A DNA stretch of 64,000 bases. Source: Thermoanaerobacterales bacterium. GTDB taxonomy: Bacteria; Actinomycetota; Acidimicrobiia; Acidimicrobiales; VFJN01. Below the pieces are notes generated by a model that worked only from the letters and a program-made list of their open reading frames with translations, ran no database searches and had not been told where the DNA came from. Shown piece by piece: positions 43,449 through 50,089 of the stretch. The stretch's first letter is position 1. Each line of letters begins with the position of its first letter. The position numbers were made by a program, and so were the translations under genes. The stretch is from positions 1 to 64,000 of the forward strand of contig PKRH01000002.1 of NCBI GenBank assembly GCA_017577565.1, in the 5' to 3' direction.

Positions 43449-44129
43449 CTACGGGGTCCAGCGCGCCTGGCCGAAGCGGTAGCCGACGGAGCGCACGGTC
43501 TGGATCAGGCTGGCGTGCTCCTCGCCGAGCTTGGCCCGCAGGCGGCGGATGTGGACGTCGACCGTCCGGGCGCCGCCGAAGTACTCGTAGCCCCACACCC
43601 GGCTGAGCAGGACCTCGCGGGTGAACACCCGACCGGGGTGGGCGGCGAGGAACTTCAGCAGCTCGTACTCCATGTAGGTGAGGTCGAGCGGCTGGCCGTC
43701 GATGGCCGCCTGGTAGGTCTCCAGGTTGAGCACCAGGGGGCCGTACTCGACGAGCTCGGGGCGCGTGCCCCGCCCGCTCCGCCAGAACAGGTGCTTCAGC
43801 CGGGCCTCCAGCTCCAGCGGCTGGAACGGGTACAGGCAGAAGTCGTCGAACAGGTCCTCGCGCAGCTCCAGGTCGCCCAGCTGCGCACCGGACACCAACA
43901 GGAGCAGGGGTTCGAGGGGCGTGTCGCGCTTGCGCACCGCCCGGCACAGCCGGAAGGCGCTCTCGGGCTCCTGGACGGCGACGACGACCGCCCCCGACCA
44001 GCCGTCGGCCGGCTCGTCGCGCGCCGCCGCCCGCTCGTCGGCGACGGCCTTCCACGGGTAGCCGGCGAGGTCGAGGGCCTGGGCGAGCTCCGGCGGGGCG
44101 GGGTCCGGGTGGATCAGCAGCGGTTCCAT
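43449..44129 (-). CDS. glnR: GlnR-like orphan OmpR-family nitrogen regulator
   Basis: The 226-residue protein has a receiver-like N-terminal domain without phosphoacceptor: around residues 47-57 the sequence is AVVVAVQEPES where the Asp should follow the strand. The C-terminal OmpR winged helix (about 130-223) is close to GlnR: YMEYELLKFLAAHPGRVFTRE, VWGYEYFGGARTVDVHIRRL and TVRSVGYRF. In actinobacteria GlnR works without phosphorylation and controls glutamine synthetase and ammonium genes. Lying 25 bp after a glnA2-type gene and near two other glutamine synthetases, it is very likely their regulator. Confidence 0.88.
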   Translation of the reverse strand: MEPLLIHPDPAPPELAQALDLAGYPWKAVADERAAARDEPADGWSGAVVVAVQEPESAFRLCRAVRKRDTPLEPLLLLVSGAQLGDLELREDLFDDFCLYPFQPLELEARLKHLFWRSGRGTRPELVEYGPLVLNLETYQAAIDGQPLDLTYMEYELLKFLAAHPGRVFTREVLLSRVWGYEYFGGARTVDVHIRRLRAKLGEEHASLIQTVRSVGYRFGQARWTP

Positions 44130-44154
44130 CGGGTGCCGCTCGCGCGCGTCGGGC

Positions 44155-45498
44155 TCAGAGGCGCGGGAGGTAGCGCTCGAGCTCGAAGGTCGTCACGTGC
44201 GTCTTGTACTCCATCCACTCCTGCCGCTTGTTGCGGATGAACCACTCGAAGACGTGCTCGCCGAGCGCCTCGGCCACCAGCTCGGAGCGCTCCATCTCGT
44301 CGAGCGCGTCCGACAGCGACTGCGGCAGCGTGTCGATGCCCTCGGCGATGCGCTCGGCCTCGGTCAGCTCGTAGAGGTTGACGACGGTCTCGTCGGCCAG
44401 CTCGTAGCCCTTCTCGATGCCCCGCAGGCCCGCGGCGAGGATGACCGAGAACGCCAGGTAGGGGTTGCAGGCCGGGTCGGGCGCCCGGTACTCGAGGCGG
44501 GCGCTCTCGGCCTTGCCCTTCTTGATCGGCGGCACGTTGACGATGACCGACCGGTTGTTGCGGGCCCACGACGTGTAGATCGGCGCCTCGTAGCCGACCA
44601 CCAGCCGCTTGTAGGAGTTCACCCACTGGTTGGTCACCGCGGTGATCTCCCGCGCGTGGTGCAGCAGGCCGGCGATGAACCCGCGGGCGACCTCGGACAG
44701 GCTGTACTCGTCGTCCGGGTCGTAGAAGGCGTTGGTGTCGCCCTCGAACAGCGACACGTGCGTGTGCATCCCCGAGCCCTGCACACCGGTGAGCGGCTTG
44801 GGCATGAAGGTGGCGTGCACGCCGGCCTCCAGCGCGACCTCCTTCACGACGAGGCGGAAGGTCATGACGCTGTCGGCCATCGTCAGCGCGTCGGTGTAGC
44901 GCAGGTCGATCTCGTGCTGGCTGGGCGCGTCCTCGTGGTGGCTGTACTCGACCGGGATGCCCAGGGCCTCGAGGGTGTGGATGGTCCGCTGGCGCAGGTC
45001 GGTCGCCACGTCGGCCGTCGTCAGGTCGAAGTACGACGCCTGGTCGAGAGGCTCGGGGCGCTTCGACGGGTCGCCGTCCGCGAAGTAGAAGAACTCCATC
45101 TCGGGGGCGACGTAGAAGCTGAAGCCCTTCTCGCGCGCCTTCTCGAGGTTGCGGCGAAGGACCTGGCGGGGGTCGCCCTCGAACGGGCTGCCGTCGAGGT
45201 TGATGATGTCGCAGAACACCCGGGCCGACGTGCCGACGCCGTCGGCCCAGGGCAGGATCTCGAAGCTGTTCGGGTCGGGGCGGGCCAGGACGTCCGACTC
45301 CTGCACGCGGGAGTAGCCGTCGATCGACGAGCCGTCGAACCGCATGCCCTCCTCGAACGCGCCCTCGAGCTCGACCGGCGAGATGGCGAAGGACTTCAGC
45401 TGCCCCAGCACGTCCGTGAACCAGAGGCGGATCATCCGCACGCCGCGCTCCTCGACCGTGCGGAGGACGTAGTCTCGCTGGCGCTCCGAGCTCTCCAT
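44155..45498 (-). CDS. glnA2: GlnA2-type (GSI-alpha-like) glutamine synthetase family enzyme
   Basis: The 447-residue protein matches actinobacterial GlnA2: [47 protein letters not shown], the VEYSHHEDAPSQHEIDLRY segment in parts, GSGMHTHVSLFEGD, NSYKRLVVGYEAP and a C-terminus VFEWFIRNKRQEWMEYKTHV. It lacks the 25-residue insertion of GSI-beta. Close relatives include gamma-glutamylpolyamine synthetases, so polyamine use is an alternative to glutamine synthesis. It heads an operon with glnR (25-bp gap). The ATG at 45498 is divergent from GSII across a 152-bp region with the 11-bp array. Confidence 0.9.
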   Translation of the reverse strand: MESSERQRDYVLRTVEERGVRMIRLWFTDVLGQLKSFAISPVELEGAFEEGMRFDGSSIDGYSRVQESDVLARPDPNSFEILPWADGVGTSARVFCDIINLDGSPFEGDPRQVLRRNLEKAREKGFSFYVAPEMEFFYFADGDPSKRPEPLDQASYFDLTTADVATDLRQRTIHTLEALGIPVEYSHHEDAPSQHEIDLRYTDALTMADSVMTFRLVVKEVALEAGVHATFMPKPLTGVQGSGMHTHVSLFEGDTNAFYDPDDEYSLSEVARGFIAGLLHHAREITAVTNQWVNSYKRLVVGYEAPIYTSWARNNRSVIVNVPPIKKGKAESARLEYRAPDPACNPYLAFSVILAAGLRGIEKGYELADETVVNLYELTEAERIAEGIDTLPQSLSDALDEMERSELVAEALGEHVFEWFIRNKRQEWMEYKTHVTTFELERYLPRL

Positions 45499-45550
45499 GG
45501 GGGGAATGGTGGGGCCGCCCCGGGCGGCGCCGCAACCAGGGCCTCGTCGG

Positions 45551-45599
45551 TTCACAGTCCGTTCACACATGGGCAACAGGTCGGAAACTGCCCGTTGCC
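45551..45599. promoter_or_regulatory. GlnR-box-like array: five pentamers at exact 11-bp spacing
   Basis: In the glnA2-GSII divergent region pentamers start at 45551 (TTCAC), 45562 (TTCAC), 45573 (GCAAC), 45584 (GAAAC) and 45595 (TTGCC), each 11 bp apart, one helical turn on the same DNA face. Known GlnR operators are gTnAC-n6-GaAAC repeats with the same pentamer plus 6-nt spacer. The fourth pentamer is a perfect b-site; the others keep the AC core, except the last. The array lies 52-100 bp upstream of the GSII ATG and 53-101 bp from the glnA2 start. Confidence 0.65.
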
Positions 45600-45650
45600 A
45601 GCCTGCGGAGCCGTCACGCTGGACTCGCCGAACGGGAGGATCCACCCCCC

Positions 45651-46655
45651 ATGACGTACAAGGCCGAATACATCTGGATCGACGGCACCGAGCCGACGGC
45701 CAAGCTGCGGTCGAAGACCAAGATCCTGCCGGACGGCGCGGAGATCCCGATCTGGGGGTTCGACGGCTCGAGCACCAACCAGGCCCCGGGTGACCGCTCC
45801 GACTGCGTGCTGCAGCCGGTGTTCACCTGCCCCGACCCGGTGCGGGGCGGCGACAACGTCCTCGTGCTGTGCGAGGTCCTCAACACCGACATGACCCCGC
45901 ACCCCTCCAACACCCGGGCCCGGTGCGTCGAGATCGCCGAGCGCTACAAGGACCACGAGCCCATCTTCGGGATCGAGCAGGAGTACACGTTCTTCAAGGA
46001 CGGCCGCCCGCTGGGCTTCCCGCCCGGCGGCTTCCCCGCCCCGCAGGGCGGCTACTACTGCGGCGTCGGCGCCGACGAGGTGTTCGGCCGCGACATCGTC
46101 GAGGCCCACCTCGACGCCTGCCTGGCCGCCGGCCTGCACATCTCGGGCATCAACGCCGAGGTGATGCCCGGCCAGTGGGAGTTCCAGGTCGGCCCGGTCG
46201 GCGTGCCGCAGGTCGCCGACGAGCTGTGGGTGGCCCGGTGGCTGCTCTACCGGATCGCCGAGGACTTCGGCATCTCGGCCACCCTCGACCCCAAGCCGGT
46301 GAAGGGCGACTGGAACGGCGCCGGCGCCCACACCAACTTCTCGACCAAGGCCATGCGCGAGAGCTACGACGCCGTCATCGCCGCCGCCGAAGCCCTCGGC
46401 AAGGACCCGCAGAAGCACATCGACGGCTACGGGGCCGACATCCAGCACCGCCTCACCGGCATGCACGAGACGGCCCCGTGGGACACCTACAGCTACGGCG
46501 TCTCGAACCGCGGCGCCTCGGTCCGCATCCCCTGGCAGGTCGAGGTCGACCAGAAGGGCTACATCGAGGACCGCCGCCCGAACGCCAACTGCGACCCCTA
46601 CGTCGTCACCCGGCTGCTGGTCGAGACGATCTGCTCGGCCGAGCAGCAGCAGTGA
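45651..46655 (+). CDS. glnII: Glutamine synthetase type II (eukaryote-type)
   Basis: The 334-residue enzyme is the GSII class: AEYIWIDGTEPTAKLRSKTKIL, WGFDGSSTNQAPGDRSDC, PIFGIEQEYTFFK and GGYYCGVGADEVFGRDIVEAHLDACL (in parts). GINAEVMPGQWEFQVGP and GDWNGAGAHTNFSTKAMRE complete the set. GSII is not adenylylated and is found in some actinobacteria and rhizobia. It is the target of the GlnR-like array directly upstream. A 12-bp hairpin follows the stop. Good GGGAGGA precedes the ATG. Confidence 0.95.
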   Translation: MTYKAEYIWIDGTEPTAKLRSKTKILPDGAEIPIWGFDGSSTNQAPGDRSDCVLQPVFTCPDPVRGGDNVLVLCEVLNTDMTPHPSNTRARCVEIAERYKDHEPIFGIEQEYTFFKDGRPLGFPPGGFPAPQGGYYCGVGADEVFGRDIVEAHLDACLAAGLHISGINAEVMPGQWEFQVGPVGVPQVADELWVARWLLYRIAEDFGISATLDPKPVKGDWNGAGAHTNFSTKAMRESYDAVIAAAEALGKDPQKHIDGYGADIQHRLTGMHETAPWDTYSYGVSNRGASVRIPWQVEVDQKGYIEDRRPNANCDPYVVTRLLVETICSAEQQQ

Positions 46656-46687
46656 GCCAACGGCTCTCCTCGCGGGGGGAACCGCGG

Positions 46688-46713
46688 CCGGGGCGCCCGT
46701 GCGGGCGCCCCGG
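46688..46713 (+). terminator. 12-bp hairpin after glnII
   Basis: Positions 46688-46699 and 46702-46713 are perfect reverse complements with a 2-nt nominal loop (effectively 4), 33 nt past the glnII stop. It separates glnII from glnA. Confidence 0.7.
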
Positions 46714-46816
46714 TGGCGCGGACGGGCACCGGGCCGGCCCGCACCGACCGTCCCGGTGCGCCGACACCCCGCTTGTTAGCGTGCGAAGCCGATCGAGCAC
46801 CTGAAGGGAGCAACGA

Positions 46817-48241
46817 GTGCAGGAGCGAACCCCCGACGAGGTCCTGGCACTGATCGCCGACGAGGGCATCGAGGTCGTCGACGTCCGGTTCTGCGACCTG
46901 CCGGGCCTGATGCAGCACTTCTCCGTCCCGGCGTCGCAGCTCACCCCCGAGGTGTTCGAGGAGGGCCTCGGGTTCGACGGCTCGTCGATCCGCGGCTTCC
47001 AGGAGATCCAGGAGTCGGACATGATCCTCATCCCCGACTCCAGCACGGCGTTCGTCGACCCGTTCCGGAGCCGCAAGACGCTGGCCATCCACGCCTACGT
47101 CCACGACCCGCTCACCGGCGAGCCCTACTCCCGCGACCCCCGCTACGTCGCTCGCAAGGCGGCCGAGCACCTGCGGTCGACCGGGATCGCGGACACCTGC
47201 TACATCGGCCCGGAGGCCGAGTTCTTCATCTTCGACGACGTGCGGTTCCACCAGGACCAGCACTCGGCCAGCTACTCGGTCGACTCGGTCGAGGGCGCGT
47301 GGAACACCGGCCGCGACGAGGGCCCGAACCTCGGCTACAAGATCCGGTACAAGGAGGGCTACTTCCCCCTCCCGCCGGCCGACCACTTCCAGGACCTGCG
47401 GACCGAGATGATGATGACGCTCGAGCAGGTCGGCATCGAGGTGGAGCTGCAGCACCACGAGGTCGGCACGGCCGGCCAGGCCGAGATCGACATCCGCTTC
47501 GACGAGCTGAGCCGCATGGCCGACAAGGTCATGCTGTTCAAGTACGTCGTGAAGAACGTGGCCCTGCAGTACGGCAAGACGGTCACGTTCATGCCCAAGC
47601 CGGTGTTCCAGGACAACGGCTCGGGCATGCACACGCACCAGTCGCTGTGGAAGGCGGGCGAGCCGCTGTTCTACGACGAGGCCGGCTACGCCGGGTTCTC
47701 CGACATCGGCCGCTGGTACATCGGCGGCCTGCTGGCCCACGCGCCGGCCGTCCTGGCGTTCACGAACCCGACGACCAACAGCTACAAGCGCCTGGTCCCG
47801 GGCTACGAGGCGCCGGTCAACCTCGTCTACAGCCAGCGGAACCGCTCGGCGGCGGTGCGCATCCCGCTCTACACGCAGAGCCCGAAGGCCAAGCGGCTCG
47901 AGTTCCGGTGCCCCGACCCGTCGTGCAACCCGTACCTGGCGTTCTCGGCGATGCTGATGGCCGGGCTCGACGGGATCAACAACCGGATCGAGCCGCCCGA
48001 CCCGGTCGACAAGGACCTCTACGACCTGCCGCCCGAGGAGCTGGCGCAGGTGCCGCAGGTGCCGGGGTCGCTGGAGGCGGTGCTCGACGCGCTCGAGGAG
48101 GACAACGAGTTCCTCAAGGCCGGCGGGGTGTTCACCGACGACCTCATCGAGACGTGGATCTCGTACAAGCGGACCCACGAGGTCGACGAGATGCGCCTGC
48201 GGCCCCACCCGTGGGAGTTCGCGCTCTACTACGACATCTGA
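46817..48241 (+). CDS. glnA: Glutamine synthetase type I (GSI-beta, adenylylatable)
   Basis: The 474-residue enzyme shows the GSI blocks [57 protein letters not shown] and [19 protein letters not shown] (in parts). It keeps the adenylylation site [10 protein letters not shown] with Tyr about residue 402, the target of GlnE. The longer length relative to GlnA2 reflects the GSI-beta insertion. A TAGCGT box at 46777-46782 gives an about 27-nt leader containing GAAGGGAG before the GTG. It is the main ammonium-assimilating enzyme. Confidence 0.97.
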
Positions 48242-48350: not shown

Positions 48351-48395
48351 TCGGGCAGGCTCGCGGTGCCCGTCCGTCACCAGTGGAGGCCTCCG

Positions 48396-49310
48396 GTGAC
48401 CGCCCGCGTCCGCCACATCACCTTCGACTGCCGCGAGCCGTACCGCCTCGCCCGGTTCTGGGGTGAGGTGCTGGGGTTCGTCGACGACCCCGACAACCCC
48501 AACGCGCCCGACGACCCCGAGGCCCTGATCGTCGACCCCACCGGCCACCACCCGGGCCTGCTGTTCGTCCCGGTCCCCGAGCCGAAGACGGTGAAGAACC
48601 GGGTCCACCTCGACCTGCGGCCGGAGGTGTCCCGCGACGAGATGGTCGAGCGGGTGCTCGCCCTCGGGGGCACGGTCGTCGCCGACCGCCGGGCCGAGGA
48701 CGGCTCCGGCTGGGTCGTCATGGCCGACCCGGAGGGCAACGAGCTGTGCGTCGAGCGGTCGGCCGCCGAGCGGGACGACGTGCCCGCCCCGATCGACACC
48801 GGCGTCCGGCCCTTCCCGCCGGTGCGCACGGCGGGCGAGCGGGAGCTGCTGACGAGCATGCTCGACTGGTACCGGGACGGCGTCGTCCGCAAGGTCGAGG
48901 GCCTGCGGCAGCACCACGCGGTCGCCCGGCCGCTGCGGTCGGAGACGTCGGTCGCCGGGATCGTGAAGCACCTCGCCCTGGTCGAGGACGGGTGGTTCAG
49001 CATCCGCTTCGCCGGCCGGGCGGGGCAGGAGCTGTGGCCGGACCTCGACGAGGACCGCGAGCCCGACTGGGACTTCCGTAGCGCCCGCGACGAGCCCCTC
49101 GCGCTCAACGTCGCCCGCTACCAGGAGGCGGTCGCCCGGTCCCGGGCCGTCACCGAGGCGCACGAGCTCGACGACGTCTGCGCCGACCCCCACCCCCGCG
49201 GCGAGTTCACGCTGCGCTTCGCGCTCGTCCACATGATCGAGGAGACGGCCCGCCACCTCGGCCACCTCGACATCCTCTGCGAGCACCTCGACGGCCGCAC
49301 CGGGGAGTGA
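48396..49310 (+). CDS. VOC-fold / DinB (DUF664) fusion protein
   Basis: The 304-residue protein joins an N-terminal glyoxalase/VOC domain (about 1-122; VRHITFDCREPYRLARFWGEVLGF, WVVMADPEGNELCVE) and a C-terminal four-helix DinB/DUF664 domain (about 140-304; ELLTSMLDWYRDGVVRKVEGL, SETSVAGIVKHLALVEDGWF, HMIEETARHLGHLDILCEHLDG). DinB folds use three His for metal, and His at SVAGIVKHL and HMIEETARHLGH fits. It is perhaps a thiol-dependent detoxification protein. Its stop overlaps the next start as GTGA. Confidence 0.88.
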   Translation: MTARVRHITFDCREPYRLARFWGEVLGFVDDPDNPNAPDDPEALIVDPTGHHPGLLFVPVPEPKTVKNRVHLDLRPEVSRDEMVERVLALGGTVVADRRAEDGSGWVVMADPEGNELCVERSAAERDDVPAPIDTGVRPFPPVRTAGERELLTSMLDWYRDGVVRKVEGLRQHHAVARPLRSETSVAGIVKHLALVEDGWFSIRFAGRAGQELWPDLDEDREPDWDFRSARDEPLALNVARYQEAVARSRAVTEAHELDDVCADPHPRGEFTLRFALVHMIEETARHLGHLDILCEHLDGRTGE

Positions 49311-50089
49311 GCCCGCTCCACGTCGTCGTCTCCGGGCCGCCGGCCAGCGGCAAGTCGACCCTCGCCGCGCCGCTCGCCGCCGAGCTGGGGCTCCCGGTCG
49401 TTGGCGGCCGGGTCGTCGAGGTGTTCTGCCGCTGCGACCGCGACGTCACCGAGCGGCGGTTCCGGGCCCGGGCGGGCTCGTGCCACCCGGGGCACTTCGA
49501 CGGCGCCCGCCCCTTCGACGAGCTGTGGGACGCCGACGTCACGCGACCCGTCGCCGGCGGGTGGCCGGTCCTGGAGGTGGACACCGCCCGGCCGGTCGAC
49601 GTGGCCGCCCTGGCGGCGTCGATCGAGCGGCTGGGGCGCGACGCCGTGCCCGGCTGGGCCCCGGTCCGGGCCGCCGGTGTCACCGTCGGGGCCGGAGGCG
49701 GACGCAGCAGTGGTCGGGCTCCGGCTCCAGGCGGGCCTCCAGGCCGGGGTCGAGGTCGGCGACGGCGGCGCCGAGGAGGCCGAGGTTCATGCCGCACACG
49801 AGGTCGGTGTGGCGGCGGGCGAGGTCGTGGAACGGGCAGTTGCGCAGCACGACCGTGCCGTCGTCGCGGGCGACGGGCTCGTAGCCGATCTCCTCCAGCG
49901 CCCCGAGGATCGCCGAGCGGGGGGCGCGCCGCCCCGCCCGCTCGCGGACCCGCGCCGCCAACGCCCGGCCCTCGGCGGCGCAGACCTCCTCGAGCGCTGC
50001 GTCGACGTCGACGCCCTCGGCCCGGGCCCGGTCGACGGCGGCGGCGAGCAGTCGCCCGGCGAGCTCGTAGTCGCGGGGCGGGAGGGTGA
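49307..50089 (+). pseudogene. Decayed P-loop kinase/AAA ATPase with internal deletion and lost stop
   Basis: The frame opens with GTGA overlap and a perfect Walker A VSGPPASGKSTLAAPLAAELGLP, but then jumps straight to RVVEVFCRCDRDVTERRFRARAGSCHPGHFD. In the related uridine kinase-like ATPases that segment lies about 60 residues further on, so an internal in-frame deletion is likely. The homologous part ends near VDVAALAASIERL (about 49640), yet no stop follows: the frame runs on for about 400 nt antisense to the next gene as Arg/Gly-rich nonsense. It looks like a degraded gene; the boundary is uncertain. Confidence 0.5.

Follow-up and report, generated by a model that had tools for sequence, protein, structure and literature searches.

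Metal-dependent VOC enzymes of the glyoxalase I and FosA types have a His, a second His and a Glu at their metal site, and glyoxalase I has a fourth ligand. According to the available excerpts of PMC10950700, FosA and FosB join thiols to fosfomycin, and the mycothiol-S-transferase (MST) of Mycobacterium tuberculosis binds its metal through two His and one Asp, other DinB proteins having three His. In the parts of PMC5815605 at hand, LmbV and EgtB are named as two-domain STL thiol transferases, and the second domain of such enzymes is said to be most likely the one that drives specificity for the non-thiol co-substrate. A further source, likewise represented by excerpts, describes the siwR locus, at which a pfam18029 gene takes the place of the pfam04978 gene in some actinobacteria (PMC10693628).

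A gene that encodes both of these families in a single chain is present in the window, i.e., the whole stretch of 64,000 nucleotides that was analysed. Judging from sequence comparisons, its product may be a metal-dependent low-molecular-weight-thiol S-transferase of the DinB/STL superfamily to which an N-terminal VOC domain has been added, the VOC domain setting specificity; the probability of this reading is estimated at about 0.5. The fusion is most likely a small detoxification enzyme.

The fusion gene and its domains

The fusion gene occupies positions 48396..49310 of the plus strand and encodes a single protein of 304 amino acids, from a GTG start at 48396, with a GGAGG at 48385-48389 on its 5' side, to a TGA stop at 49308-49310. 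The G+C content of the window is 70-78% and long ORFs are frequent on both strands, including an antisense ORF of 380 amino acids that overlies the fusion gene, so that the length of the reading frame alone is no proof of a gene. The gene was accepted because homology runs along the entire chain, the full-length relatives being 60-64% identical, and because both domains score far above the Pfam cut-offs in one frame. The first of them, the VOC domain PF18029 (Glyoxalase_6), spans residues 7-119 (48414..48752, plus strand), covers positions 1-105 of the 106 in the model and reaches 96.4 bits (E = 1.9e-27) against a gathering cut-off of 23.6; AlphaFold2 and Foldseek agree with this assignment. 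It is followed by a linker at about residues 126-146 (48771..48833, plus strand), weakly conserved among the fusions in the alignment and the site counts, and by PF04978 at residues 152-300 (48849..49295, plus strand). The latter, a domain of the DinB/STL four-helix type by its fold matches to 2ou6 and 8f5v, covers model positions 2-149 of 149 with 127.4 bits (E = 7.8e-37; gathering cut-off 27), and DinB_2 also hits the C-terminal half (E = 1e-8). The original prediction of a VOC domain joined to a DinB/DUF664 domain is thereby confirmed, by the two Pfam families in a single frame and by intact relatives. Its naming was right in substance, PF04978 being the former DUF664 that Pfam now calls "MST, mycothiol-S-transferase".

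Distribution and surroundings of the fusion

The pattern-led scan of GTDB contigs confirmed 588 places, and among the best 80 of these the full query is covered by two, L035 from an Acidimicrobiales MAG and L036 from an Actinomycetota MAG. Of 397 genomes from the window's order, searched with at most five candidates scored per genome at E ≤1e-20, three gave intact full-length matches: G521 (locus L115, 64% identity), G490 (L116, 60%) and G419 (L035, 60%). In a fourth genome, G473 (L036), the two domains lie in different frames, 44 nt apart as measured between the profile ends. This out-of-frame arrangement (L036:486-1378) corresponds to a broken gene, a split gene or an assembly error. All four genomes belong to one genus of the same order as the window and have the VOC domain before the MST domain; within that genus the fusion is found in 4 of 12 genomes, counting the frameshifted G473. 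In the window's family it occurs in one genome out of seven (one of which is only 67% complete), namely the window genome itself. Among the matches listed for a class sample of 296 genomes (at most seven candidates each) and for a phylum sample of 396 genomes (at most five candidates each, E ≤1e-30), there is no full-length fusion besides that of the window genome. G076, which matches residues 41-302 with 31% identity and one stop, was rejected as a further fusion since it has the MST domain only. Eight other places matching across or near the domain boundary include none with both full domains: four have MST only and three VOC only, and the eighth is L155. At L155 (reverse strand, around 1291-1950), in another family of the phylum, an MST gene is immediately preceded by a stretch whose only match is to the C-terminus of the VOC domain.

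The presence of an intact fusion in G490, a one-contig assembly, argues against an assembly artefact, and a chance join or an assembly error was rejected in view of the three intact relatives together. The join of the two domains is real; it looks rare, and its distribution is patchy. The five fusions form one group in both domain trees, with supports of 100/100 for MST (48 rows) and 98/65 for VOC (92 rows), and the relationships among the five are not resolved in the MST tree. This single grouping is compatible with one origin, and the patchiness would follow from gene transfer between lineages as well as from repeated loss. Composition gives no sign of a recent foreign gene, as third-position G+C is 0.99 in the window copy and 0.89-0.97 in the relatives. 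Over six pairs of fusions, pN/pS is 0.33-0.53 in the VOC domain, 0.53-0.77 in the MST domain and 0.45-1.46 in the linker, values of little weight, given that the synonymous count is distorted by third positions rich in G+C.

In the window, the fusion gene comes after a gene for a type I glutamine synthetase, and its end shares 4 nt with the ORF that follows. Upstream, positions 43449-48241 hold a nitrogen-assimilation cluster. It includes an OmpR-type regulator, whose GlnR-like N-terminal match stays under the cut-off (15.7 bits against 27); the minus strand further encodes a type I glutamine synthetase, and the plus strand GlnII and, adjoining it, a second type I enzyme. Downstream, the ORF at 49307-49648, which shares the four letters GTGA with the fusion's stop, begins with a P-loop and ends in a kinase-like part. 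Its counterpart in G367, G110 and G345 is one frame of 199-214 amino acids, whose two parts match separately with 126-159 nt between them, and the window copy therefore seems to lack the middle piece. The translations around the other fusions, read by eye, show an M16-peptidase-like gene, which adjoins the fusion in L035 and L116 and is separated from it by one gene in L036, as well as a dapB-like gene nearby in L035 and L115. Since the neighbours differ between the window and its relatives, the neighbourhood is not common to the fusions.

That separate VOC and MST genes generally lie next to each other was considered and rejected: a VOC match is present in 88 loci and an MST match in 50, and beyond the five fusions both occur together in only two, L051 and L058. 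In L058 they lie about 3.6 kb apart on opposite strands. The VOC gene at L051:2107-2918 stands alone and is placed with the fusions by the VOC tree (support 94/43); an MST match is found 86 nt from it, on the opposite strand and in convergent orientation.

The MST half and the host thiol

Conservation was read from 98 VOC rows and 50 MST rows, which were collected with profiles built from matches of the fusion itself. Some rows are near-copies or come from overlapping loci (e.g. L002 and L003), and L117 and L118 were omitted as duplicates of the L035 and L036 records. The ligand set expected of a DinB/STL protein, either a His triad or two His and one acid, is present in the sequence as H192 (48969..48971), E283 (49242..49244) and H287 (49254..49256), all on the plus strand and all in 50/50 rows. 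R274 and D292 are likewise found in 50/50 rows, and R160 in 48/48. The original prediction had been staked on relatives not lacking the metal ligands of both domains; those of the MST half are kept in every row.

The closest solved structures were sought by profile, by single sequence and by fold. A profile of 45 rows matched 2ou6 with an E-value of 2.2e-8 and the MST chains 8fx9 and 8f5v with 6e-5, unrelated PHF2 chains appearing at 0.002 as a gauge of the noise in the same search; a PDB search with the single sequence retrieved 2ou6 only (E = 0.023). In the profile alignment, E283 is matched by an Asp, and H287 by a His, in both 2ou6 and 8f5v. H192 is aligned with a His in each of them as well, without gaps in 2ou6 but only behind an insertion of 11 residues in 8f5v. 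A mixed alignment (A1, 84 rows) placed the first MST helix over VOC columns and was replaced by two others, A3 (45 rows) and A4 (43 rows). The full-length model from 45 rows has a mean pLDDT of 78 and is good in the MST half only, residues 1-80 remaining at 43-65. Foldseek ranked 2ou6 first and 8f5v second for this model, both with E = 1.2e-4 and with target TM-scores of 0.60 and 0.71, respectively.

The two structures differ in what they convey. 8f5v, whose name is also that of 8fx9, shows the M. tuberculosis MST in complex with mycothiol and zinc, and the fusion shares with it the four-helix DinB fold and an aligned acid and His at the metal site. Nevertheless, the fusion is only 23% identical to it, has other conserved residues and carries the extra N-terminal VOC domain, and the NCBIfam equivalog model MST_Rv0443 (NF047843) scores it at 13 bits against a cut-off of 170. 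R286 (49/50 rows), H290 (48/50) and D292 (50/50) have no common counterpart in 8f5v in the profile alignment, so the thiol or the chemistry may differ from those of the tested MST. 2ou6, DR_1065 of Deinococcus radiodurans (DUF664), is both the best PDB match by profile and the first-listed fold match, but its chain of 190 residues is without a VOC domain and its title describes the metalloenzyme only as "putative".

These comparisons leave some space for an MST half that would be a metal enzyme working with another thiol, or one using the thiol as a cofactor of isomerisation or hydrolysis, rather than a mycothiol transferase. The closest solved relative by profile comes from Deinococcus, and the mycothiol-dependent maleylpyruvate isomerase 2nsf is also among the fold matches of the full-length model. 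Moreover, PF04978 matches were obtained in 3 of 14 control genomes, those of Bacillus subtilis, Thermus and Deinobacterium, and are absent from Corynebacterium glutamicum, which indicates that the family is not tied to mycothiol. Yet the window genome has MshA-, MshC- and MshD-like genes, and this alternative appears unlikely.

In that genome, which is 95.7% complete, the MshD gene is above its cut-off (222 bits against 163), as it is in all three genomes searched for it. The MshC-like gene scores 418 bits as MshC (cut-off 485) and 343 as CysS, and a separate CysS gene scores 431 as CysS and 306 as MshC; the MshA-like gene reaches 415 bits (cut-off 462.5). The curated cut-offs were reached in none of five genomes for MshA and in none of three for MshC. 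The L035 genome has the same set of Msh-like genes as the window genome, its MshC-like gene scoring 405 bits; in the L036 genome the profile search saw no MshC, the best match having 215 bits. The bit scores alone are informative here, as the three Msh models match 14/14 control genomes at E 0.001, each being over its cut-off in 1/14. On these scores the thiol of the window organism is likely to be mycothiol or a close relative of it.

The VOC half and the proposed function

Modelled alone (residues 1-132, 43 rows), the VOC half is predicted by AlphaFold2 with confidence (mean pLDDT 92.1, pTM 0.85). Foldseek placed FosA-type chains first for this model, with E = 2.6e-7 and a TM-score of about 0.62, among 213 chains at E ≤0.001 that also include the mitomycin-binding MRD protein (1kll), TnmS1 (5umq) and bleomycin-related chains. 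At the sequence level, no related PDB chain was found at E <1 with the single sequence, and the profile of the VOC half hits 4lqb (E = 1.4e-5) within the first two thirds of the residues. The fusion and FosA/FosB thus have the VOC fold in common, but identities are 14-19%, the fusion has a Cys at the place of the Glu ligand, and the NCBIfam model fos-Vibrio gives 13 bits against a cut-off of 250.

Among the VOC rows, H71 (48606..48608), the second ligand position, is kept in 96/96, and C118 (48747..48749) is a Cys in 94/95; H7 (48414..48416), the first ligand position, is a His in 35/95, with Asn in 42 (all three codons on the plus strand). A local profile alignment with E. coli GloA sets H7 on H5, H71 on H74 and Val46 on E56 and ends with residue 117 on 121, so that C118 would land on E122, probably the place of the last Glu ligand of glyoxalase I; its probability is very low (0.59%) and the ligand mapping therefore rests on motifs. 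A global alignment with GloA differed, was worse (0.08%) and was set aside. As far as this low-scoring alignment goes, the glyoxalase I/FosA ligand set is incomplete: H7 and H71 are present, Cys118 stands at the place of the Glu and Val46 at that of the fourth ligand. H7 and E120 occur together in 20 of the 98 rows, H7 alone in 15, E120 alone in 7 and neither in 56 (gaps counted as absent), an association that is no independent test since the rows are related. At positions 7, 73 and 120, Asn-Cys-Leu is found in 35/98 rows and His-Asp-Glu in 20/98, and these two classes may mark two types of active site.

The original prediction envisaged detoxification in two steps, in which two catalytic domains would act in sequence: the MST half would conjugate the thiol and the VOC half, with a metal of its own, would isomerise or cleave the adduct, or the reverse. 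The confidently predicted VOC fold is consistent with such a second enzyme, as is the retention of H7, H71, C118 and E120 in 5/5 fusions, which fall in the H7-D73-E120 class, in a family where position 7 is not a His in 60/95 rows. The retention of H7 leaves room for a second metal site in the VOC half. However, Cys seems to replace the last Glu ligand, the fourth place is taken by Val46 (in a weak alignment), and no tested function or reaction of a PF18029 protein was found in the open-licence literature searched, as represented by its excerpts. Two successive catalytic domains are therefore an unlikely arrangement. A stricter version pairs a FosA/FosB-type VOC with a DinB-type MST, each with a metal site (His-His-Cys, H7/H71/C118, in the VOC half), and has both act on the same substrate, either at two of its positions or in two steps; it is less probable again. 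Least probable of all is that the VOC half merely sequesters a toxic compound like mitomycin- or bleomycin-binding VOC proteins, making the fusion a private protective protein, for the matches to 1kll, 5umq and bleomycin-related chains that suggest it do not go beyond the superfamily (TM about 0.6, with 213 chains at E ≤0.001) and none of the nine window neighbours run on Pfam resembles natural-product synthesis.

The VOC half is more likely a binder of the second substrate than a second enzyme, a preference that follows from the incomplete look of the usual ligand set and from the poor retention of H7 across the family. In the favoured reading, a thiol S-transferase with an added VOC domain, H192, E283 and H287 of the MST half would bind a divalent metal, probably zinc, which would activate the thiol of mycothiol. 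The VOC half would bind the electrophilic second substrate, or shape its pocket, and would thereby set specificity; the activated thiol would then be added to the electrophile. LmbV and EgtB serve biosynthesis, and to our knowledge their second domains are not VOC domains. As far as the excerpts describe LmbV and EgtB, the fusion has in common with them a DinB-type thiol-handling domain and a second domain thought to set substrate specificity. The role ascribed to the second domain in the available parts of PMC5815605 fits the VOC half at least as well as the two-step idea does. Taken with the gene exchange at siwR in the excerpts of PMC10693628, it favours a pathway shared by the VOC and MST halves. 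The dependence on a thiol and a metal in the original prediction is thus supported, by membership of PF04978, a family with a zinc- and mycothiol-bound member, by the invariant triad and by the Msh-like genes; its two steps are not, given the Cys, the Val and the variable position 7 of the VOC half.

Both domains belong to known families, and it is their combination that looks new and their joining that looks rare; no publication on a VOC-MST (PF18029-PF04978) fusion was found in the open-licence literature searched, as far as the excerpts of it extend. If both halves did bind a metal, one chain would unite two unrelated bacterial folds for low-molecular-weight-thiol transfer. The window copy and its three intact relatives make a small set that can be tested. 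PF18029 proteins are common in the actinobacteria examined, and the fusion, together with the exchange of the two families at siwR reported in the excerpts of PMC10693628, gives a concrete hint that Glyoxalase_6 proteins may take part in thiol-dependent detoxification.
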